Source: a virus
Length of the DNA: 64,000 nucleotides
Direction: 5' to 3' (one strand)
Virus record (IMG/VR): IMGVR_UViG_3300025115_000007
Location: 1 to 64,000 of that record
Shown here: positions 3,565-58,981 of the stretch, one piece after another
Position numbering within the stretch: the stretch's first letter is position 1
Layout of the letters: each line of letters begins with the position of its first letter
Made by a program: the position numbers and the translations under genes
Notes under the pieces: generated by a model
Told to the model about the DNA's origin: nothing
Seen by the model: the letters and a program-made list of their open reading frames with translations, nothing else
The model's database searches: none

Positions 3565-3665
3565 TATAAATAGGTATGAGAAGGTAATCCGGGTGATGGA
3601 GTCACACCGGAAACAGTAGGAGAACCTTACCGCTGTCCCTTCCACATATCACTTATTTATAAGGA
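3565..3665 (+). ncRNA. HEG-associated leader element, copy 1 (late box plus three-way-junction RNA)
   Basis: Starts with a TATAAATA box (3565-3572). Then GAAGG (3580) pairs with CCTTC (3638), CCGGGTG pairs with CACACCGG, and ACAG pairs with CTGT, giving a three-way junction. A TATTTATA at 3654, next to the AAGGAG ribosome site, is the inverted copy of the late box. The same arrangement occurs at 45559 and 53072, with compensating changes in the stems. It is not recognised as a known RNA family. Confidence 0.65.
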
Positions 3666-3675
3666 GAACATCAAT

Positions 3676-4536
3676 ATGTCAACCAAACTAACCTATGATT
3701 TTATAAAACAATATATCGAGTCTTTTGGCTATAAATTATTGAGTAATGAGTATCCAAATTCAGGGATAAAATTACAAATACAATGTTTGGAAGGACACGT
3801 ATACAAGGCAGCGTGGAATACTTTTCAAGCAGGTCATAGATGCAAAAAATGTAAGTATATCAAACACGCCATAAATGAGAGACTTCCATATAATGATGTG
3901 AAAAACTATATCGAAAATACTGGCTACAAATTACTAGATGATACATATAGTGGAGTAGGTATAAAACTAAAAATGATGTGTCAAAACAACCATATATGTC
4001 ACATTTCATATGATAACTATAAACATGGAAGAAGATGTGGACAATGTTACCAGAAAAAACAATATACATACATTGATGCCAAAAATTATATAGAGTCTAG
4101 TGGTTATAAAAAATGTCAATTCCTCTCTAAAGGTCAAATGTCCAAAAGGCCATGTTTACAACACCAGACTTAGTAATTTCCAAAGGGGTAAAAGATGCCA
4201 AATATGTTGGGAATGCCAAACATACTCAAAACCAGAAAAAGAAATACTTGAATATGTTAAAAAAATATATACCGGTATAGTGAAACCCAATGATAAAAAA
4301 AACAAATTACTAATCCATTAACCAAACGAAAGCTTGAACTAGACATATGGTTACCGGATACTAATAAAGCTATTGAATATAATGGCTCTTATTGGCATAG
4401 CTTACCGGAAAGACAATCTTGTGATATGGTAAAACAAGAACAATGTCGAATAAAAGGCATTGATCTATTGGTTATTCATGAGGATCAATGGTTACAAAAC
4501 AAAGATTGGTCACTCATTGATAATTTTCTACGATAA
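3676..4536 (+). pseudogene. Homing endonuclease (zinc-ribbon repeats plus Vsr-like nuclease), two frameshifts
   Basis: Reading starts in one frame (3676-4173), shifts near 4110 at an A-run (GGTTATAAAAAATG) and again near 4300 at a run of eight A. Joined, it encodes three repeats of a ~55-residue unit with paired CxxC motifs, then an EDxHD/Vsr-type nuclease core: LELDIWLPD, AIEYNGSYWH, GIDLLVIHEDQW. The intact relative is at 45659. Both A-run shifts are typical of decay, though sequencing error in homopolymers could mimic this. It lies inside the interrupted ligA region, on the opposite strand, and its last bases overlap the ligA N-half stop. Confidence 0.75.
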
Positions 4537-23561: not shown

Positions 23562-24707
23562 TTAGGTGGACTCTTTTTTATTGGCTGCGCCCCAGCCAAC
23601 ATTCAGCTTGGTCAATGCAAAGGTCACTATGTTGCTAGCTGCCAGGATATCCCTGTCATGGGTTGCATCACAGGCGGAGCAGGTCCATAATCTATCCCCT
23701 AATTCCAATTCTTGGTTCACTAACCCACAGACACAGGTCTTGGAGGAAGCATCAAATCGGCCGATGGTAATCACTTGTTTACCGGCTTCCTTGGTCTTAT
23801 ATTCCAGTATTTGCCGAAAAGTGTACCAGGATGTATCCCCTATTGACCTGGACATATAGGTCTGACCATTCTGCATCATTGACCTAATGGAGAGGTCCTC
23901 AATGGCAAACGAGCCGTGGCCTTGGTTCTCAACCAGGCTGTTTACCAGCTTATGTAGGAAGTCCTTTCTTCTGTTATTGACCTTTTTATATATCCGAGCC
24001 ACTTTGGTTCTTTGTTTATTGTAGTTCTTACTGGCCTTAGTCCTCCGACTAAGGTTCTGTTGAGCCACCGCCAGGTGTTTGAGTGATTTGGCTAAGTTCC
24101 TTGGATTGTCTATTTTGGTACCGTTAGAAAGGGTTGCATAGTGGGTAAGGCCTAGGTCAATACCTACCATGGTTTCACTGGAAACCGGTTTTGGTTCTGG
24201 TTCAACCAATCCATTTTCATATAGGATGCAGGCGTAGTATTTACCAGTGGAAGACCTTGATATGGTTGCATTCCGAAGGTCATAATGTTCCTGGAATTTG
24301 AACCGGTCCTTGAACCGAACCTTACCCAATTTTGGCAGGGTAAGAGTTTTACCAACCACATCAATACTCTGTGGACATCGAAAGGTCCGTTTAGCTTGCT
24401 TTTTGGATTTGAACTTGGGGAAACCATTGTTCTTCCGGAAGAAATGGCTAAAGGCTGATTCCAGGTCAACCAACACCTGCTGGAGACATTGGGCATTGAC
24501 TTCCTTAAGCCATTCCTTTTCCTTCTTATGTTCAGTGAGCATTGAGGAAATAGTAACCCGACTTAACCCCCTTTTATGTTCGGTGTAGTAGGCTATCTTC
24601 TTCTCCAAGGCCCAATTATAGATGTATCGGCAACAATCAAATGTATGGTCAAGTGAACTGGCCTGTGTTTTGGTCGGATATAACCTTATCTTTATCGCTC
24701 GGAGCAT
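23562..24707 (-). CDS. tnpB: TnpB RNA-guided endonuclease, copy 1
   Basis: 381 residues, usual length. N-terminal helix-turn-helix (RAIKIRLYPTKTQASSLDHTF), RuvC I with GIDLGLTHYATL (Asp184), RuvC II with SFAIEDL (Glu270), zinc finger CVC...CSAC (325-346) and RuvC III in HDRDILAASN (Asp353). All catalytic acids are intact. Related to copy 2 at 27276 through most of its length. The guide RNA would end at the element's right end with flanking DNA as guide. A late box lies upstream at 24744. Confidence 0.95.
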   Translation of the reverse strand: MLRAIKIRLYPTKTQASSLDHTFDCCRYIYNWALEKKIAYYTEHKRGLSRVTISSMLTEHKKEKEWLKEVNAQCLQQVLVDLESAFSHFFRKNNGFPKFKSKKQAKRTFRCPQSIDVVGKTLTLPKLGKVRFKDRFKFQEHYDLRNATISRSSTGKYYACILYENGLVEPEPKPVSSETMVGIDLGLTHYATLSNGTKIDNPRNLAKSLKHLAVAQQNLSRRTKASKNYNKQRTKVARIYKKVNNRRKDFLHKLVNSLVENQGHGSFAIEDLSIRSMMQNGQTYMSRSIGDTSWYTFRQILEYKTKEAGKQVITIGRFDASSKTCVCGLVNQELELGDRLWTCSACDATHDRDILAASNIVTFALTKLNVGWGAANKKEST

Positions 24708-24921: not shown

Positions 24922-25086
24922 ATGAGTAAAGCAGCCAGTGGTGGCGGCAAAAAAATTGGCCGTCACAAAACACATTGTGCTCAGTACCGAGCCTCTGGAC
25001 GACGGGAGAAGAACAAAGCCCGTGTGGCCCGTAAGATTGCAAAGATGCTGGCCAAAAAAAGCAAAAAGAAAGGGGGCGTGAATTAG
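24922..25086 (+). CDS. Small basic protein overlapping the tmRNA
   Basis: 54 residues, preceded by GGGGGTG. Very basic: GRHKTHCAQYRASGRREKNK followed by KKSKKKGG. I associate this pattern with a small conserved protein of large phages; nucleic-acid binding is likely from charge alone. Its last four codons and stop are the 5' acceptor region of the tmRNA. Confidence 0.65.
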   Translation: MSKAASGGGKKIGRHKTHCAQYRASGRREKNKARVARKIAKMLAKKSKKKGGVN

Positions 25087-25432
25087 TTTCGACGGAGATA
25101 ACTGAAATTACAGGTGCATGTCGAGGTGTCTACTAGGCCTCGTAAAACCAGTAGAAAACCATAATCGCAGATAACTACGATTACGCTTACGCTGCCTAGA
25201 CGGCGTACATCATTATCGAGACTTTCTTACCGGGCTCTTTAATGGTGTCATTAAGGTAAGATAGCTTTAGTACCAGACCTTAGTGGGACTAAGGCGAAAC
25301 AACATAAGGATGTTACTGGAAAATCTTAGCCTTTGAGAGTTTCCAGGTAACGAGAACAAAGCAAAGGAGAAGCATGTGGAAACTGTAATGACGTATTTAC
25401 GGACGCCGGGGCAGAACCGGCCACGTCCACCA
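25074..25432 (+). ncRNA. ssrA: Transfer-messenger RNA (tmRNA)
   Basis: 5' acceptor GGGCGTG pairs with CACGTCC before A-CCA at the 3' end; TTTCGACGG and GGTGCATGTCGAGG...CCTCGTAAAA are the conserved tmRNA 5' blocks; the T-arm has GCCGG/CCGGC with a GGCAGAAC loop. The mRNA part resumes at GCA 25167 and encodes ADNYDYAYAA then TAG. Length 359 nt is normal. It rescues stalled ribosomes, adding a tag for proteolysis. A terminator at 25545 ends the unit. Confidence 0.93.
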
Positions 25433-27275: not shown

Positions 27276-28418
27276 TTAGGTGGACTCTTTTTTATTGGCT
27301 GCGCCCCAGCCATTAGCTAGTTTGGTCAATGCGAAGGTCACTATATTCCGAGCTGCCAGTGTATCCCGGTCATGGGTTGTACCACAGGCAGAACAGGTCC
27401 ATACCCTATCCCCTAACCCCAACTCCTGGTTAACCACCCCACAGGTACAGGTCTTGGAGGAAGCATCAAACCGGCCCATGGTAACCACCTGCTTGCCGGC
27501 TTCTTTGGCCTTATATTCCAATATTTGACGGAATGTATACCAGGAAGCATCCCCTATTGCCCTAGACATATGGGTTTGACCTTTTTGCATCAACGTCTTA
27601 ATGGAGAGGTCCTCTATGGCGAAGCTGCCGTAGTCTTGGTTCTCGACCAGGTTGTTCACCAGCTTGTGTAGGAAGTCCTTCCTCCGATTATTGACCTTTT
27701 CATATATCCGAGCTACTTTAGCCCGTTGCTTATTGTAGTTCTTACTGGCCTTAGTCCTCCGGCTAAGGTTTTGTTGGGCCTTAGCTAGGTAATCAAGCGA
27801 CTTTGCCAAGTTCCTTGGATTGTCTATTTTGGTGCTGTTAGAAAGGGTTGCATAGTGGATAAGGCCTAGGTCAATACCTATCATGGTTTCACTGGAAACC
27901 GGTTTTGGGGCTGGTTCAATCAACCCATTCTCATATAAAATGGAGGCATAATATTTACCGGCCGATCTTGATACTGTTGCGTTCCGGAGGTCATAATGAT
28001 CCTGGAATTTGAACCGGTCCTTGAATTTAACCTTACCAAGTTTTGGTAGTGTGAGAGTTTTACCTTCCACTCTAATCCTACTCACTATCCGGTAACTGTT
28101 TTTACACGACCTCTTGGACTTGAACTTGGGAAATTTGTTGTTCTTCCGAAAGAAGTGGCTAAAAGCCGATTCGAGGTCGATAATGGCCTGTTGAAGGGCT
28201 ATATTACTAACCTCACCGAGCCATTCCTTCTCTTTCTTATGTTTGGTAAGCAGAGCGGAAATAGCTACCCAACCTAGACCCTTCTTGTGATCGGTATAAT
28301 AGGCTATCTTTTTCTCCAGAGCCCAGTTATAGACATACCGGCAGCATCCAAAATGCTTATCCATCAGTTCGGCCTGGTCTTTAGTTGGATATAACCTTAC
28401 CTTTATAGCACGGAGCAT
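27276..28418 (-). CDS. tnpB: TnpB RNA-guided endonuclease, copy 2
   Basis: 380 residues, clearly paralogous to copy 1. RuvC acids are intact in GIDLGLIHYATL (Asp183), FAIEDLSI (Glu269) and HDRDTLAARN (Asp352); zinc finger CTCG...CSACG. Differs from copy 1 mainly at ~100-150 and in the C-terminal third. Same codon style as the phage genes. A TATAAATA late box lies upstream at 28459. Confidence 0.95.
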   Translation of the reverse strand: MLRAIKVRLYPTKDQAELMDKHFGCCRYVYNWALEKKIAYYTDHKKGLGWVAISALLTKHKKEKEWLGEVSNIALQQAIIDLESAFSHFFRKNNKFPKFKSKRSCKNSYRIVSRIRVEGKTLTLPKLGKVKFKDRFKFQDHYDLRNATVSRSAGKYYASILYENGLIEPAPKPVSSETMIGIDLGLIHYATLSNSTKIDNPRNLAKSLDYLAKAQQNLSRRTKASKNYNKQRAKVARIYEKVNNRRKDFLHKLVNNLVENQDYGSFAIEDLSIKTLMQKGQTHMSRAIGDASWYTFRQILEYKAKEAGKQVVTMGRFDASSKTCTCGVVNQELGLGDRVWTCSACGTTHDRDTLAARNIVTFALTKLANGWGAANKKEST

Positions 28419-32199: not shown

Positions 32200-32277
32200 A
32201 TGATAAAGGATCCTTGGAAATACTTCAAGGAGGAATATGAAAGGTGGGTAAAAGGAAATGAACTGGAACGAAATTAG
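32200..32277 (+). CDS. Possible small ORF, 25 residues
   Basis: Encodes a plausible amphipathic tail ([17 protein letters not shown]) and its frame is open further upstream without a clear start. It overlaps the next gene start. Could be the end of a decayed gene. Confidence 0.3.
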
Positions 32278-33226
32278 GAAAATCCACACCTGGTTACCCA
32301 ATACCGGTGAGGGTTGGCACCAACACCCAAATGGGGAAGGTTGGGTACAGGATACTGCCAGGGTGGAAAATACCGCTTATGTGGGTCCGGAGGCCCTGGT
32401 CTCTGGTGAAGCCTGGGTCTATGATGAAGCCCGGATCTCTGGTAAAGCCTGGGTCTATGATAAAGCTGAGGTTTCTGATGAAGCCCTGGTCTCTGGTAAA
32501 GCCCGGGTCTCACATGAAGCCCGGGTCTATGGTAAAGCCCGGGTCTCTGGTGAAGCCTGGGTTTCACGTGAAGTCCGGATCTATGGTGAAGCCTGGGTCT
32601 ATGGTAAAGCTGAGGTTTCTGATGAAGCCCTGGTCTCTGGTAAAGCCCGGGTCTCACATGAAGCCCGGGTCTATGGTAAAGCCCGGGTCTCACATGAAGC
32701 CTGGGTTTCACGTGAAGCCCGGGTCTATGGTAAAGCCCGGGTCTATGGTCAAGCCCAGGTCTATGGTCAAGCCCGGGTCTATGGTGAGGCCGAGGTCTAT
32801 GGTAAAGCCCGGGTCTATGGTCAAGCCCAGGTCTATGGTCAAGCCCGGGTCTATGGTAAAGCCCGGGTCTCACATGAAGCCTGGGTCTATGGTCAAGCCC
32901 AAGTCTATGGTCAAGCCCGAGTCTATGGTGAGGCCGAGGTCTATGGTGAAGCCTGGGTCTCTGATGAAGCCCAGGTCTATGGTCAAGCCCGGGTCTCTGG
33001 TGAAGCTCGTATATCTAAAACTTCCGATTATATCACCATTGGGCCTATTGGAAGTAGATCAGCCATACTAACAGCGTTCCGGTCTACATCCGGCATAACT
33101 CTGGTGACTGGTTGCTTTATAGGTGACCTGGCTGGTTTCCGGAAAGCGTTGGAAGGTGAGACCGGTAAGCACTATGAGGTGGATTATCCCATTTTCCTGG
33201 ATGCCATTGAAAAATATTTCCAATAA
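32258..33226 (+). CDS. Hexapeptide-repeat (left-handed beta-helix) protein
   Basis: 322 residues. After [19 protein letters not shown], about 36 hexapeptides of the form A-x-V-[YS]-[GD]-[KEQ] follow (~45-250), the pattern of left-handed beta-helices (LbetaH) of acyltransferases and carbonic anhydrases. The last ~70 residues are a different, globular domain. No catalytic histidine loop is seen, so it may be structural or a decoy rather than an enzyme. The DNA is almost pure 18-base tandem units. Confidence 0.8.
32390..33010 (+). repeat. 18-base tandem repeats encoding the beta-helix
   Basis: Units such as GTCTATGGTAAAGCCCGG and GTCTCACATGAAGCCTGG alternate about 34 times; larger blocks recur (for example GATGAAGCCCTGGTCTCTGG at 32480 and 32620). 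Internal duplications show recent expansion. Confidence 0.9.
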
Positions 33227-35849: not shown

Positions 35850-36979
35850 TAGCTAAAGACCTCACCTTGATAGACGGTGCCAAAAAGATTGTCCTACTAG
35901 ACCCGGCCAATGTCCGGAAGTATATGCCTCTTGGCCTGGCCAAGATTTCCACCTACGTGAAAGCCAGGGGTGGCGAGGTTGTGTTCCAGAAGAAATATGT
36001 ACCATGTGGTGAAGACCTTGTCTGCATTACCTCACTTTTTACCTGGTATGCCCATAAGGTACATGCGGCTATAGATCAGGTTCTATCAGCCAACACTTTA
36101 TTCAATCCAGACCTGAAGATATTGGTTGGAGGCACCTATGCCACATTGATGCCTAAGCACTTGGAGAAGCTATATCCACAGGTCCACATCTTCAAAGGCT
36201 GTTCCAGGATATTGGATGAATGTGCTCCAGACTATACGTTGGACTTCAATCTGGAAGACAAGTGGAACGACATCTCCTATATCTATACCTCACGGGGTTG
36301 CCCCAACAAATGCCAATACTGTAGTGCATGGCGGATCGAGCCGGAACAGTATATCATAGAGCATTGGAGGGAACATATCCATCCAAATCGAAGCCAGGTA
36401 ATGATCAATGATAACAATTTGTCGTCCCAATCCATTGACCACATTAGGTCCATATTCGATTATGTCCGGGAGACCGGCAAAAAGATCAACCTCAAGAACG
36501 GGTTTGATTGCAAATACATTACGGACGAGTTGGCCGGTATGCTCGGCAAGATGAAATTTGCCAGTCGGGGCATGAGGCTATCATTTGACAGGATAGAGGA
36601 GGATGGTGTGTTCCAAGGTGCTGTCCAAAAGCTACTCAAGGCCGGTGTGTCACGCCATAACATTATGGTTTACGTGCTGTTCAACTTCAATGAACGGGTA
36701 AGTGAAGCGGTATATAGGGCCAATGAGTGTGTAAAGCTGGGTATAGCCCCATGGCCCCAGGAATATACCACCATGAACAAGCTGGACATACATGATAAGT
36801 ATCTTGGGAAGCACTGGACGCCTAACCTCCGGGCGGCCTTCAAGCTTTTCTACCTATTCGCCGGCTACTATCATAATATGACCTTTTTAGAATGGTGCAT
36901 GAGCCCAGGTAAGAATAACAACATATACAATTTTACCGAAGATGAGATTGGACGAGTGAAAGGCGAGGACATATGCTAA
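35846..36979 (+). CDS. B12-binding radical SAM enzyme
   Basis: 377 residues. The N-terminal ~100 residues look like a Rossmann B12-binding domain (MPLGLAKISTYVKARG, then LVGGTYATLMP). Radical SAM motif CPNKCQYC at ~152-159 after IYTSRGC. Such enzymes do methylations or rearrangements. The class II reductase at 55703 is also B12-dependent. Substrate not known; nucleotide or peptide modification are both possible. Confidence 0.75.
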   Translation: MIAKDLTLIDGAKKIVLLDPANVRKYMPLGLAKISTYVKARGGEVVFQKKYVPCGEDLVCITSLFTWYAHKVHAAIDQVLSANTLFNPDLKILVGGTYATLMPKHLEKLYPQVHIFKGCSRILDECAPDYTLDFNLEDKWNDISYIYTSRGCPNKCQYCSAWRIEPEQYIIEHWREHIHPNRSQVMINDNNLSSQSIDHIRSIFDYVRETGKKINLKNGFDCKYITDELAGMLGKMKFASRGMRLSFDRIEEDGVFQGAVQKLLKAGVSRHNIMVYVLFNFNERVSEAVYRANECVKLGIAPWPQEYTTMNKLDIHDKYLGKHWTPNLRAAFKLFYLFAGYYHNMTFLEWCMSPGKNNNIYNFTEDEIGRVKGEDIC

Positions 36980-45554: not shown

Positions 45555-45562
45555 TATTTATA
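45555..45562 (-). promoter_or_regulatory. T4-like late promoter box for the 45524-41406 operon
   Basis: Minus-strand TATAAATA, part of the palindrome TATTTATAAATA that also gives the plus-strand box for the endonuclease leader. Confidence 0.6.
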
Positions 45563-45650
45563 AATAATCATGTGAAGGTAATCCAGGCGCTAGTACGCAC
45601 TGGAAACAGCGAGAGTTAGCTGCTGTCCCTTCATATCAACTATTTATGAG
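45559..45650 (+). ncRNA. HEG-associated leader element, copy 2
   Basis: TATAAATA, then GAAGG/CCTTC, CCAGGCG/CGCACTGG and ACAGC/GCTGT stems, then TATTTATG before the ribosome site. The stems differ from copies 1 and 3 by paired changes (for example CCAG/CTGG against CCGG/CCGG), supporting the fold. Confidence 0.65.
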
Positions 45651-45658
45651 AGGTCACC

Positions 45659-46522
45659 ATGTCAAAAAAATTACAATACCAATATGTAAAGGAGTTCATA
45701 GAATCCGTTGAAGGATATGAACTTATAAGTAAAACCTATAAAAGCCTTCAAGAACATATATCAATAAAATGTCAAAATGGTCATGTATACCAAACAAGTT
45801 TTTGCATTTTTAGGTGTGGCTGTAGATGTCCAAAATGTAAAGGTGTTGCTAGATATACGTATGAACAAATAAGGCAATCAATACATGATATTGGATATGA
45901 ACTTATAAGCGAAACCTATAAAAATGTTTATGAAAAACTTGACATAAGGTGTGATGTTGGTCATATATTCCAAATGTGTTACCATGATATAGACAATAAA
46001 CATAAATGTCCAAAGTGTTTTGGTAAATTTCGTCATACCATTGAATACATAAAGGAGTATATTAGTGGTATTGATGGTTATAAAGCACTACTAACAAAAT
46101 ATATAAACAATTCCACAAAAATTCCTATAGAATGTCCCAAAAAACATGTTTTTGAGATGAGTTTTAACAATTTTCAACGTGGACATCGATGTCCTAAATG
46201 CGCTAAGCTATTAAAAAGATCGAAAGGTGAGATTGAAATATTTGAATATGTAAAAACGATCTATGATGGTTCTATAATACCTAATGATACTCACACCATT
46301 TTCAATCCCAAAACAGGAAGGTATGTCGAGTTAGATATATATTGTAAAGATATTAGTAAGGCCATTGAGTTTGGCTATAAATATTATCATACAAATAATT
46401 ATAAAGATAGGTTAAAAGTCAATGAATGTAAAAGGTTGGGTATAAATTTGTTGGTTATTGACTATAACGATTGGGTGAAAAATAAAGACCTTGGGATTAT
46501 TCATAAATTCATCCTAGGTTAA
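45659..46522 (+). CDS. Homing endonuclease (zinc-ribbon repeats plus Vsr-like nuclease), intact
   Basis: 287 residues. Three repeats of a ~60-residue unit, each with a xGHVYQ-type strand and a CxxC pair (CPKCKG, CPKCFG, CPKCAK), then the EDxHD/Vsr-like core: YVELDIYCKDISKAIEFGYKYYH, CKRLGINLLVIDYNDW. Full-length relative of the decayed copy at 3676. It sits between the ATP-grasp operon and a zinc-ribbon gene, on the opposite strand, and shares its TTAA stop bases with that gene. Confidence 0.8.
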   Translation: MSKKLQYQYVKEFIESVEGYELISKTYKSLQEHISIKCQNGHVYQTSFCIFRCGCRCPKCKGVARYTYEQIRQSIHDIGYELISETYKNVYEKLDIRCDVGHIFQMCYHDIDNKHKCPKCFGKFRHTIEYIKEYISGIDGYKALLTKYINNSTKIPIECPKKHVFEMSFNNFQRGHRCPKCAKLLKRSKGEIEIFEYVKTIYDGSIIPNDTHTIFNPKTGRYVELDIYCKDISKAIEFGYKYYHTNNYKDRLKVNECKRLGINLLVIDYNDWVKNKDLGIIHKFILG

Positions 46523-53071: not shown

Positions 53072-53170
53072 TATAAATAGATATGAGAAGGTAATCCGGG
53101 TGAGGGTATCACACCGGAAACAGTAGGAGAACCTTACCGCTGTCCCTTCCATCGTCTATTTATAGGAGAA
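53072..53170 (+). ncRNA. HEG-associated leader element, copy 3
   Basis: TATAAATAG, the three-way-junction stems (GAAGG/CCTTC, CCGGGTG/CACACCGG, ACAG/CTGT) and CTATTTATA before AGGAG. Almost identical to copy 1 although the downstream endonuclease is unrelated. Confidence 0.65.
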
Positions 53171-53177
53171 CGGTCAC

Positions 53178-54069
53178 ATGGAAATCATCGGAAATCCTTA
53201 TGGAATCATTTACCTCATCACATGTATAGTGAATATGAAGAAATATGTTGGTCTTACCACCAAAACATTACAAGAAAGGTGGAAAAACACATTTGAAGGC
53301 ATCAAGGAATAAGAAACGTATTAGTTATTTCCACAAAGCCATTTGCAAATACGGTAAGGAAAATTTCACCATGAAAGTCATTTGCGTCTGTGATGCAAAG
53401 GAAATATTATGCTTGATGGAAACATTTCAAATTATGGTAAATCATAGCCACATAAGCGAAGGCGGTTATAACCTAACATGGGGTGGTGAGGATTTTGATA
53501 CTTTCACCCACAATCCTAATAAGGAAGAAATAAAGAACAAGCAAAGGTTAGCTAGTACAGGTAAGAAACATACACAGGAAACAAAGGAAAAATGTAGACT
53601 AATCAACTTAGGTAAAAAGTTTTCCGAGCAGCATAAGAAAAACCTAAGCATATATGCTAAAAATAGAACAGAGGAACATAGAAAACATATAGGTAACTCT
53701 AATAGAGGAAAGCACCATAGTGATGATGCTAAAAAATTGATGAGTGATAGTCATAAAGGTAAAAGTTTTACAGATGAACATAAAAGGAAGATAAGTGAGT
53801 CTCTAATCGGTAAAGTAAGAAGTGAGGAACATTGTAAAAATTTAGGCCTAACTAATAGGGGTAGAAAACATACCGAGGAAGCTAAAAGGAACATGAGCGC
53901 CGGGCAAATAGGTAGAAAACATACCGAGGAGTTCAAAAAATTTATACGAGAAGTGAATAAGGGTAGAAAAATGACACCGGACCAAATTGAAAGGGGAGTA
54001 AATGGTAGAAGGCTGTCCAAACAACTAAAAAACATGTATAGCGTTATGGAGTATAGCCTATGCGCCTAA
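53178..54069 (+). pseudogene. GIY-YIG homing endonuclease with NUMOD3 repeats, one frameshift
   Basis: Frame 1 (53178-53312) gives GIIYLITC and KYVGLTTKTLQERW, the GIY-YIG core; frame 2 continues from about 53290 with the rest of the domain (FHKAICKYGKENF, METFQIMVNH, GGYNLTWGGE) and about nine NUMOD3-type repeats (GKKHTQETKEK, GKSFTDEHKRKI). The shift lies at GGAAAAACAC. Joined it would be ~295 residues. It precedes and abuts the 54060 gene. Confidence 0.8.
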
Positions 54070-55702: not shown

Positions 55703-58700
55703 ATGTCGCTTTCCGAAAACGCTATAAAAATCTTCAAAACACTGTATTGCCTTCCTGGGGAAGAAATAGATGATACATTCCGGCGTGTGGCCAATGAGTT
55801 TGGTAACACTAAGGAGGAGAAGGAATATGTCTTTGGGTTATTAAAGGAGAAAAAGTGGCGCCCGAATTCCCCCGTTTTCTTTAATGCTGGTACCACCCAT
55901 AAAATATTCAGTGCTTGTTTTGTGGTTGGTATACAGGATAGCATGGAAAGCATATATGATATAGCCAATGTGGCCAGGAAGATATTCCAGTATGGTGCCG
56001 GTATAGGCATACCAATTGGTAACCTAAGGGAAAAGAACGCGGACATCTATGAGGGTGATAAATCCAAAGCGCCGGTTGGTAAAAGCTCTGGTCCCATTAG
56101 CTTCATGCAGCTCTATAATGCGGTAGGCGAGACCACAAAGAGTGGTGGTCGCAATAGGAGAGCAGCTATCCTTATGGCCATGCCGGTCTGGCACCCTGAC
56201 ATAGAGGAGTTCATCAAGTGTAAGGAGGTTGACGGGTCGCTCAAGAATATGAACATCTCCGTCAACATCACCGATGAGTTCATGCAGGCCTTCAAAGACA
56301 ACACACCGTTTTCCCTAAGGACCCCAGCTACAGGTGAAGTGGTTAGTGAGGTCCAGGCCCGGGCACTTTGGGACACTATTGTGGATTCAGCCCATAAGAC
56401 AGCCGACCCCGGCGTGTTGTTCATAGACACAATCAACCGGTATAATGTGCTCCGGAGCAAGTACCTGATAGAATGCCTCAACCCCTCGTTGATTGCCGGA
56501 ACAAAGGTGATTACAAAAACCGGTATATACCCCATTGAACAATTAGAAAACAAGAGCTTTGATGTTATAAATCAACATGGTAGCTATTCTCCGGCTGAAT
56601 GTTTCCAATCAGGTAAAAACAAACAGCTTTATGAGGTTTGGTTGGAAGGTGGTAAAAAGTATTATGCTACTTCCGAACATAAATGGCCGTTATATACAAG
56701 AGATGGTTATGTAAAAACAAAAACATCAAAATTAAAAGCTGGAGACTTTTTGCCAGTACGTCAAATCGACACACTAGGATATGGTGACCTTGGTACCTAT
56801 AATGATGGATTGGCGACTGGCTGGAACCTAGGCGATGGCTGGATTACTGATAGGGGTGATAATGGTAAAAGACAATATGGGTTCTTTTTTGCCAAAGAAG
56901 ATATTGAAAACGGCATAGTCAATGAGGTAAAGAGTTGGTTGTCAAGTGTTACCGGTAACATGTATGATGGTAATACGGTGAGAAATGGATGTATGGAAAT
57001 AAATGTTATATCCAGGATATTGGATGATAAGTTCAGAAGCCTTGGGGTGGTCAAAAAGTCCGAGGGGTTACCATCATTGATTTGGACACGTTTATCTGAA
57101 GATTTTCGCCGCGGACTCATCGACGGATTGTTCTCATCAGATGGATGTATCCATAAAGACGGAAGGATTAGTCTGAACACCGCACATGAAAAATTAGCCT
57201 ATGACCTATCCGATCTACTAGGATTCTATGGTATAAAGGTACGTATATATCGGAGCAAAAAGACCGTTGCCAAATTTCCTAATGGTAAGAACTATAACAA
57301 AACATATGTATGTTACGGTATATCATTTTCCGGTGTATCCGTAGAGCATTTCCGAAAGGTTTTCAAACTCACCCATAAAAGGAAAAACGAGCTTATGCAA
57401 AACATACCATCAGTGAATCCTAAGCTCGATTCCACTCATATAAGAATCAAGAAAGTTCGGAAAACCTATATGAGGCGGGATGTATGGGATATACGAGTAT
57501 ATGATGATACCCACACGTTCAAGCTCTCTCATGTCATTACGGGTAATTGCTCCGAAATTACTATACCACCATTCGGTTCCTGCACATTATCTGCCATAAA
57601 CCTTCATAAATTCTGTGGTCCAGAAGGCTTTGACTTTGAAGCCTTTTACCATACAGCATATAAGGCCATGAGGCTCATGGATAACCTGATCGATGTCATG
57701 GAGACACCGGACCCACGCTTCAAGGAGATGGCGTCCAAATATCGTCAAATAGGTATAGGGCCAATGGGCTTGGCTGATACATTATACGAATTAAACTTGC
57801 CATATGATTCCCCCGAAGGCAGGACCATGGTTGCAAAGATTATTAAGACAATGACCACAGCGTGTATTGAAGCCTCCGCTGATATGGCCAAAGAAAAAGG
57901 TAAGTTCCATGGCTATAAGGAATGTTCTGCGGATGTCCTGGAAATTGTGCCTAAATGGATTGATGATCCAGCTGTATTGGAGAAGGTCAAGAAACATGGA
58001 CTTAGGAACGCCTTGATGACCACCTGTATGCCAACAGGCACCGTGGCTATATCATGTGATACCTCATATGGCATAGAGCCATGCTTCGGCCTGGTTGTGA
58101 CCAAGACGTTAAGTGAGACAGGTGAGAAGATGAATATGGTCAACCCTGTGTTCCAGCGCAAATATGAGAATGAGGCCTGGTTCACACCCGACCTATTAGA
58201 AAAGATCGGCCAGAACAAGGGGTCATTGAAGAACCTACGAGGTATACCAAAGGAGGTCCGGGATGTATATGTTGTGGCCCATGACATTAAGGCCAAAGAC
58301 CGGATCGACATGCAGGCCTGTATTCAGACTCATATTACCGCTGCCATATCATCCACTGTGAATTTACCGGAGACAGCCACACGGGATGAAGTATCGGAGA
58401 TATACCGGTACGCATACACCAAGGGACTCAAGGGGATAACCATATACAGAGATGGATCCAAAAAGTCTCAACCAATCACTTTCTCTAAGGAAACACAGCA
58501 GGTGCGTAGCAATTTTGTGAGGCCATCGAAATTACAAGCCAATGTGCATGTAGTGGAAACAGGGAATGGGAAAATGTACTGTACCATAAGCACCCATGCT
58601 AACAAGCCGGTTGAGATTTTTATTTCCATGGGTAAAGGTGGTAACCTATTGAATACCTTCTGCGAAGCACTTGGCCGAACAACCTCCATTGCACTCCAGC

Positions 58701-58981
58701 ATGGGGTTCCAATCGATGTGGTCATAAAGACCATGATTGGTATTAACTCGGACAGACCAGTCTGGACTAGATTGGATGAGAATGACAAGAAACCGGAGCA
58801 AATCCTTAGTATTCCTGATGCGTTGGCCAAATTGCTCAGGAAGTATTATAGCAATGATGGTGGTAAAGAAAATTTCTCAACCGGTGACGGTGACTTTTGC
58901 TCGAAATGTGGAACCTGGTCGATACAGTTCATTGAAGGATGCAGCATATGTACCAATTGCTCTGAAAGTAAGTGTTCCTAG
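55703..58981 (+). CDS. nrdJ: Class II ribonucleotide reductase (NrdJ) with an intein
   Basis: 1092 residues; 738 after removing the intein. NrdJ blocks: NSPVFFNAG, SACFVVG (first redox Cys), GGRNRRAAILMAMPVWHPD, NP-CSEI (the catalytic Cys loop, split by the intein), CMPTGTVA, KGITIYRDGSK. The C-terminus has CSKCG...CSICTNCSES cysteines. Makes deoxynucleotides with adenosylcobalamin, so the phage needs host B12. Preceded by AAGGAG. Confidence 0.92.
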   Translation: MSLSENAIKIFKTLYCLPGEEIDDTFRRVANEFGNTKEEKEYVFGLLKEKKWRPNSPVFFNAGTTHKIFSACFVVGIQDSMESIYDIANVARKIFQYGAGIGIPIGNLREKNADIYEGDKSKAPVGKSSGPISFMQLYNAVGETTKSGGRNRRAAILMAMPVWHPDIEEFIKCKEVDGSLKNMNISVNITDEFMQAFKDNTPFSLRTPATGEVVSEVQARALWDTIVDSAHKTADPGVLFIDTINRYNVLRSKYLIECLNPSLIAGTKVITKTGIYPIEQLENKSFDVINQHGSYSPAECFQSGKNKQLYEVWLEGGKKYYATSEHKWPLYTRDGYVKTKTSKLKAGDFLPVRQIDTLGYGDLGTYNDGLATGWNLGDGWITDRGDNGKRQYGFFFAKEDIENGIVNEVKSWLSSVTGNMYDGNTVRNGCMEINVISRILDDKFRSLGVVKKSEGLPSLIWTRLSEDFRRGLIDGLFSSDGCIHKDGRISLNTAHEKLAYDLSDLLGFYGIKVRIYRSKKTVAKFPNGKNYNKTYVCYGISFSGVSVEHFRKVFKLTHKRKNELMQNIPSVNPKLDSTHIRIKKVRKTYMRRDVWDIRVYDDTHTFKLSHVITGNCSEITIPPFGSCTLSAINLHKFCGPEGFDFEAFYHTAYKAMRLMDNLIDVMETPDPRFKEMASKYRQIGIGPMGLADTLYELNLPYDSPEGRTMVAKIIKTMTTACIEASADMAKEKGKFHGYKECSADVLEIVPKWIDDPAVLEKVKKHGLRNALMTTCMPTGTVAISCDTSYGIEPCFGLVVTKTLSETGEKMNMVNPVFQRKYENEAWFTPDLLEKIGQNKGSLKNLRGIPKEVRDVYVVAHDIKAKDRIDMQACIQTHITAAISSTVNLPETATRDEVSEIYRYAYTKGLKGITIYRDGSKKSQPITFSKETQQVRSNFVRPSKLQANVHVVETGNGKMYCTISTHANKPVEIFISMGKGGNLLNTFCEALGRTTSIALQHGVPIDVVIKTMIGINSDRPVWTRLDENDKKPEQILSIPDALAKLLRKYYSNDGGKENFSTGDGDFCSKCGTWSIQFIEGCSICTNCSESKCS
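56486..57547 (+). other. LAGLIDADG intein inside nrdJ
   Basis: 354 residues (262-615 of the host protein). Starts Ser1-LIAGTKVITKTG after ECLNP and ends VITGN before Cys+1 of CSEI. Two dodecapeptides, GWNLGDGWIT and GLIDGLFSSDG, mark the homing endonuclease. The penultimate residue is Gly instead of the usual His. Inserted right at the catalytic cysteine, so splicing is essential for activity. Confidence 0.88.

Follow-up and report, generated by a model that had tools for sequence, protein, structure and literature searches.

The window analysed here is a 64,000-nt stretch of viral DNA, part of a 66.7-kb IMG/VR record, in which a block of ~100 nt occurs three times, at positions 3565–3669, 45559–45657 and 53072–53180. 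Each copy lies closely 5′ of a nuclease gene; all three locations given by the initial annotation were confirmed, as was the near-identity of copies 1 and 3 (~90–95%), and copy 2 shares 74% identity with copy 3. In copy 1, a putative RNA was detected on the minus strand at 3577–3645 (cmsearch, 64.6 bits with model R1 and E = 3.7e-13 with model R2), and the minus-strand minimum free energy (MFE) fold is a three-way junction with helices P1 (3579–3584/3638–3643), H1 (3614–3632) and H2 (3588–3611). The loop of the H1 guide arm is antisense to the ribosome-binding site (RBS) of nuclease 1, AGGAGAAC (3662–3669, plus strand), and contains a copy of it at 3618–3625 (8-nt match; loop-RBS duplex of −13.2 kcal/mol). 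Two TATAAATA sequences, which we take to be T4-type late-promoter boxes, frame this copy: one for the nuclease 1 mRNA (3565–3572, plus strand) and one adjoining P1 for the RNA (3654–3661, minus strand).

The other two copies have the same organization. RNA copy 2 (45571–45635, minus strand; R1 65.9 bits, R2 E = 1.5e-13, consistent MFE fold) has its H1 guide arm at 45607–45622 (minus strand), whose loop pairs with the RBS GAGAG(G) at 45648–45653; the match is short (5 bp) and the duplex, −8.0 kcal/mol, is the weakest among the three window copies. A TATAAATA box precedes the nuclease 2 mRNA (45559–45566, plus strand), and the late-promoter-like box of the RNA, CATAAATA (45641–45648, minus strand), is a 7/8 match whose assignment leans on the class statistics given below. 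RNA copy 3 (53084–53152, minus strand; R1 66.7 bits, R2 E = 1.1e-13, consistent MFE fold) carries an H1 guide arm (53121–53139, minus strand) with a loop antisense to the RBS of nuclease 3, TAGGAGAAC (53163–53171, plus strand), a copy of which is present at 53124–53132 (9-nt match; −14.0 kcal/mol). Its TATAAATA boxes are located at 53157–53164 (minus strand, RNA) and 53072–53079 (plus strand, nuclease 3 mRNA). Model R1 gave E-values of 1e-13 to 3e-14 per window copy, well past what chance would give, these copies being among its training sequences.

All three nuclease genes are on the plus strand. The 5′ part of gene 1 (3676–4173; phrog_559/681, treble-clef/Vsr-like) is followed by a frameshift, and other frames carry on to ~4530. 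Gene 2 (45659–46522) is intact and encodes a 287-aa HNH endonuclease (phrog_559, E = 2.7e-42), and gene 3 (53178–54069; GIY-YIG and NUMOD3) is frameshifted after codon 44. The three enzymes had been described as unrelated; unrelated types are indeed present, but they number two, since copies 1 and 2 precede genes of the same family (phrog_559/681) and copy 3 a GIY-YIG gene with NUMOD3. Genes 1 (3676–4530) and 3 (53178–54069) are frameshifted while their RNAs are intact, pointing to either decaying homing endonucleases or assembly errors.

Several additional features were observed in the window. Two TnpB-type "transposase" genes on the minus strand (23562–24707 and 27276–28418; ~85% identical, phrog_506, E < 1e-112) flank a tRNA/tmRNA cluster, each with TATAAATA upstream, and a phage tmRNA was identified by Rfam inside the tRNA cluster (25074–25432). 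The protein encoded at 36973–38214 matches Druantia DruA (PF14236, E = 2.5e-21), a relative of a defence protein in a phage. Ribonucleotide reductase (55703–58981) contains an intein with a LAGLIDADG endonuclease domain. Finally, ~31 overlapping register copies with 18-nt spacing at 32246–33100 correspond to 6-aa repeats within ORF 32258–33226, which has a PHROG match with no function assigned there.

Members related to the three window copies were first sought in IMG/VR with degenerate patterns taken from these copies. Of the pattern-found members, 43 served to build a minus-strand covariance model. Whole-record searches with this model supplied many copies demanded by no pattern. Patterns derived from predicted covariant variants (UGG/CCA for CAG/CUG; a U-A pair changed to G-C) also returned many new members. 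In all, covariance models and pattern scans yielded 97 distinct members in uncultured phages. Several phages had multiple copies: by model search, 10 were found in a 213-kb contig (11 on rescanning its excerpts), 7 in a 224-kb contig and 6 in a 248-kb contig.

The RNA is ~65 nt long and has the layout 5′-P1-GACAG-H1-UU-H2-UUA-P1′-3′, in which two arms and P1 meet at an invariant junction (GACA, UU, U[U/A]A). In the 97 distinct sequences, 91.4% of cells were paired compared to 59.9% in shuffled controls, double-change cells numbered 595 versus 181, and all 19 base pairs showed covariation, each changing on both sides; related members within families are included in these statistics and in those of the guide loop below, and are not independent of each other. 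A model search giving further members before nuclease genes and covarying pairs (97 members, 19/19 pairs) is what the initial annotation had anticipated. Of the three stems it described, the three-way junction fold stood, but the third stem is CAGN/N′CUG on the minus strand rather than ACAG/CTGT. The G-U pair in this stem of copies 1 and 3 reads as an A-C mismatch on the plus strand. The plus-strand ACAG/CUGU register was dropped; the exceptions CCG/CAG and CUA/CAG are G-U pairs, and another member (L107) has a compensatory CAA/UUG.

No Rfam match was found in the window or at 24 member loci, apart from a chance 12-bit fluoride fragment (E = 0.35). A plus-strand GAAAC...CUGUC resembles half of a hammerhead core by chance; CUGANGA is absent and no Rfam ribozyme matched. 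Chance matches in coding DNA that had no P1 (L008/L011, L017, L022, L027, L108 and L110–L112) were removed. Among 84,980 cellular genomes, one true match was detected, in a goat-ileum MAG labelled Methanobrevibacter (L109). It was taken as phage contamination rather than a cellular member, and its leader sequence is the same as that of a gut phage contig (L086). Blastn searches of INPHARED with three members as queries returned nothing convincing, and the covariance model had no match in 12 cultured phages, including T4 and Aeh1 (five of these searches were repeated with positive controls). The 97 members are a strong computational candidate for a previously undescribed RNA family in uncultured phages.

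The arms of this RNA contain sequences matching the RBS of the adjacent gene, and two classes were distinguished among 95 non-redundant members by the position of the match and by-eye curation of 22 members. In class A (60 members, including all three window copies), the H1 loop is an antisense repeat of the nuclease RBS on the other strand. In class B (35 members), it is the H2 loop that is complementary to an RBS, here the one just downstream on the same RNA. In a first comparison of class A H1 loops with the RBS, the longest word in common was 7.6 nt, against 5.0 nt after permutation (0/2000). The predicted duplex of the class A loop with its own opposite-strand RBS was −11.90 kcal/mol, compared to −7.13 kcal/mol with those of other members (sd 0.27, 0/5000 permutations); for class B H2 loops, the values were −8.90 and −5.99 kcal/mol (0/5000). 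Five other arm/flank combinations were null in this own-versus-permuted duplex test. When classes were ignored and all 95 members were used, both the H1 and H2 matches were significant (0/5000 each), and H2 against the complement of the 5′ flank reached 113/5000. The specificity was also seen within a genome: for the 11 RNAs of the single 213-kb phage, the own-RBS duplex was −11.69 versus −8.23 kcal/mol (0/5000), and the own RBS was the best partner for 8/11.

Some matches lie at RBS regions without a Shine-Dalgarno core, as in L063 (CAATCTAAAA), which indicates that the guide loop is not a generic anti-Shine-Dalgarno sequence. The nucleases of copy 3 and of another member, L021, are homologous and the two RNAs have an identical H2 stem, whereas the H1 loop differs between them in concert with the RBS (TAGGAGAAC to GAGGCAA). 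These sequence comparisons suggest that the loop is rewritten to the RBS of the neighbouring gene, and that the RNA may be a re-targetable brake on mobile genes. The fold of the loop and its guide pairing are compatible only while the loop stays open.

Non-Watson-Crick pairs were informative about which strand carries the RNA. The first such pair in P1 of class A, read on the minus strand, was G-U in 37 cases and A-C in 2, and the G-U to A-C ratio in H1 and H2 was 16:1. The P1 bias was the same with and without a same-strand neighbour gene (18:1 and 11:1). MFE values by strand (−22.3 versus −21.3, p = 0.03) differ modestly and agree weakly with the minus strand. As the minus strand has G-U where the plus strand has A-C, the folded class A RNA is placed on the strand opposite the nuclease gene and is not a nuclease leader. 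For class B, P1 was neutral with regard to strand (4 G-U and 3 A-C in six pairs). No terminator was obvious by eye after the class A RNA. An ORF of the neighbouring gene starts within 80 nt on the strand of the RNA in 34/60 class A cases, and where such an ORF is present the putative small RNA may be the 5′ end of the mRNA of that gene.

The target genes were mostly unrelated homing endonucleases, joined in class B by a few replication or unassigned genes. Among 53 class A targets we identified NUMOD3 (21), SegE-type GIY-YIG (13), GIY-YIG (11) and LEM-3 GIY-YIG (6) proteins; the remainder include DUF723/DUF4379, HNH and one TnpB/Cas12f-like protein. The last is encoded at L063:8507–10108 (PF07282), in the place usually taken by a homing endonuclease, and has its own guide loop with a 10-nt match. 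Genes on the other side of class A RNAs belong to the usual repertoire of T4-type phages (portal, neck, sheath stabiliser, gyrase B, ligase), with no GIY-YIG, NUMOD3 or HNH family among the 25 families listed for them. Genes following class B RNAs encode DUF723 (6), DUF7487 (5), GIY-YIG and HNH proteins, and also DUF5055, DUF1376 and DnaD-like replication proteins (L009, L209, L289, L200, L202 and L290), implying that the cis form is not confined to nucleases. Occurrence of the same RNA by unrelated nuclease families bears out the earlier view that it can be exchanged between enzymes. The proposal of a new RNA class tied to phage mobile genes likewise agrees with a covarying three-way junction that has no Rfam match and is found mainly by mobile nuclease genes. 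Two further arrangements were observed in class B: in L058/L181 a truncated GIY-YIG remnant (MYGYIYKSK*) comes after the RNA, which has outlived its nuclease, and in a gut phage (L086:1292–1786) a class B leader and HNH gene are inserted directly after the phage tmRNA gene.

Every stem varies among the members, but 97/97 have the same junction letters (GACA, U and U..A), an invariance that is partly ascertainment from the search patterns, although members found by the model alone still keep the junction. This raises the question of whether the junction is a riboswitch-like or protein-binding scaffold, in which a metabolite or a phage or host protein would bind and thereby free the guide loop or not; class B would then be a conventional translational riboswitch whose pseudoknot involves the RBS, and class A a ligand-controlled antisense RNA. 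In class B, the pseudoknot between loop and RBS is similar to the platforms of translational riboswitches, and the presence of class B before DnaD-like, DUF1376 and DUF5055 genes also fits such a scaffold. On the other hand, part of the invariance was built in by the patterns, conservation of a junction can be purely structural and need not imply a ligand, and the targets have no metabolic theme in common. We consider this explanation improbable but worth keeping in view. An extended version, in which the junction is an aptamer or protein-binding site, the loop is rewritten for each nuclease, and the RNA serves as a programmable, exchangeable silencer, both as a cis riboswitch and as a ligand-controlled trans antisense RNA giving phages immunity against extra copies of the same homing endonuclease, is speculative and, if anything, slightly less probable.

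The flanking boxes were examined in the window and across the family. The TATAAATA box occurs 18 times in the window versus 4.4 expected (0/100 shuffles), and the flanking TATAAATA and inverted TATTTATA boxes reported initially are present, the right-hand box of copy 2 being CATAAATA. In class A, boxes matching at 7/8 or more positions were found in 47/60 and 51/60 members on the two strands (3.7 and 11.4 expected), at a median of 3 and 4 nt from the modelled core, and TAAATA was present in 55/60 and 57/60. The predicted start of the class A RNA usually follows closely on a TATAAATA late-promoter box, which is oriented towards the nuclease gene's own late promoter. In class B, the RNA-strand box was found in about half of the members, and the opposite-strand box in 4/35 (2.7 expected, no excess). 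Flanking bases showed a weak excess of identity (20/2000 permutations as high).

According to the initial annotation, the block is a plus-strand leader of the endonuclease mRNA, and a TATAAATA/TATTTATA hairpin like that of I-TevI could mask the RBS in read-through transcripts but would be missing from late ones. The inverted repeat is present, the flanking bases have the weak excess identity just noted, and such hairpins are known for I-TevI, segB and mobE (PMC2988022, PMC3014915). However, the structured element of class A lies on the strand opposite the nuclease mRNA (37:2), with G-U pairs of the minus strand appearing as A-C mismatches on the plus strand; the model gives no reason for H1 to carry an RBS copy specific to each gene; and class B has no right-hand box. 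The class B element is on the mRNA strand, but it forms a junction and a pseudoknot, unlike an I-TevI-type hairpin leader. With TAAATA on both strands (55/60 and 57/60) and only weak extra identity in the flanks, the inverted repeat is better accounted for by a pair of late promoters facing each other, and the hairpin is not needed. We regard the leader model as very unlikely; a read-through hairpin may exist as an extra layer beside the facing promoters. A DNA element without RNA function (a cruciform, recombination or homing site travelling with the nuclease gene) would fit the occurrence of both orientations relative to the nuclease and of multiple dispersed copies per genome, but is the least credible explanation, as a DNA hairpin should give no one-strand bias of G-T over A-C (37:2 and 16:1 here) and, in either class, the antisense match varies with the RBS.

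We favor a new RNA family that silences translation of homing endonucleases, acting in trans as a minus-strand RNA in class A and in cis on the mRNA strand in class B, with a probability of about 0.72. This reading draws on fold, strand, gene-specific RBS complementarity, promoter boxes and target type, all seen in the sequences. We infer that the class A RNA would be produced from its late promoter, starting at P1; this promoter, as predicted, is oriented towards the nuclease's own late promoter, with the nuclease RBS behind it. The H1 loop would then kiss the RBS of the nuclease mRNA in trans, and an overlap of ~70 nt with the mRNA leader could extend the pairing, so that translation is blocked. 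In class B, the same scaffold would reside in the nuclease mRNA leader, where the H2 loop would form a pseudoknot that closes the RBS in cis. Such an RNA would likely serve to keep expression of a selfish, DNA-cutting gene low during late infection, and might also shut off the same nuclease arriving with another copy or phage.

Translational riboswitches with a Shine-Dalgarno pseudoknot include SAM-II and SAM/SAH. Like these, the class B loop is predicted to pair with a downstream Shine-Dalgarno sequence, and this pseudoknot and a junction invariant in 97/97 members (partly ascertainment) may or may not amount to an expression platform and an aptamer-like core; unlike them, the new RNA has no Rfam sequence or structure match, and class A would act on the mRNA of the other strand. 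The nearest working analogue of class A appears to be RNA-OUT of IS10/Tn10, an antisense RNA to the transposase mRNA RNA-IN that blocks ribosome binding (PMC5006887). In both systems an antisense promoter faces the promoter of a mobile gene (here predicted from class A boxes on both strands) and the RNA is complementary to the translation initiation region (here the gene-specific H1 loop-RBS match, 0/5000). However, RNA-OUT overlaps the RBS with perfect complementarity over 35 nt, whereas in class A a promoter box lies between the RBS and P1, and the RNA starts after the RBS without overlapping it in DNA. The phage RNA instead has a separate, copied anti-RBS in a loop of a conserved three-way junction. 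Its scaffold, in addition, is common to unrelated nucleases, has moved between them and is also used in cis. Several T4-type homing endonucleases (I-TevI, I-TevII, I-TevIII, segB and mobE) have RBS-sequestering cis hairpins, and these sites include a TATAAATA late promoter (PMC2988022, PMC3014915). The new RNA is likewise predicted to restrain such enzymes post-transcriptionally, but the T4-type hairpins are simple, gene-specific and in cis on the nuclease mRNA, and none is a conserved junction, antisense or trans-acting. In the open-access literature, we found no report of a structured or antisense RNA associated with homing endonucleases.

This RNA is a candidate family in T4-type phages, with up to 11 copies per genome, and offers a possible account of how homing endonucleases are restrained when they have been inserted in antisense orientation to the adjacent genes. 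It would also be a natural case of one RNA scaffold re-targeted many times via loop rewriting.
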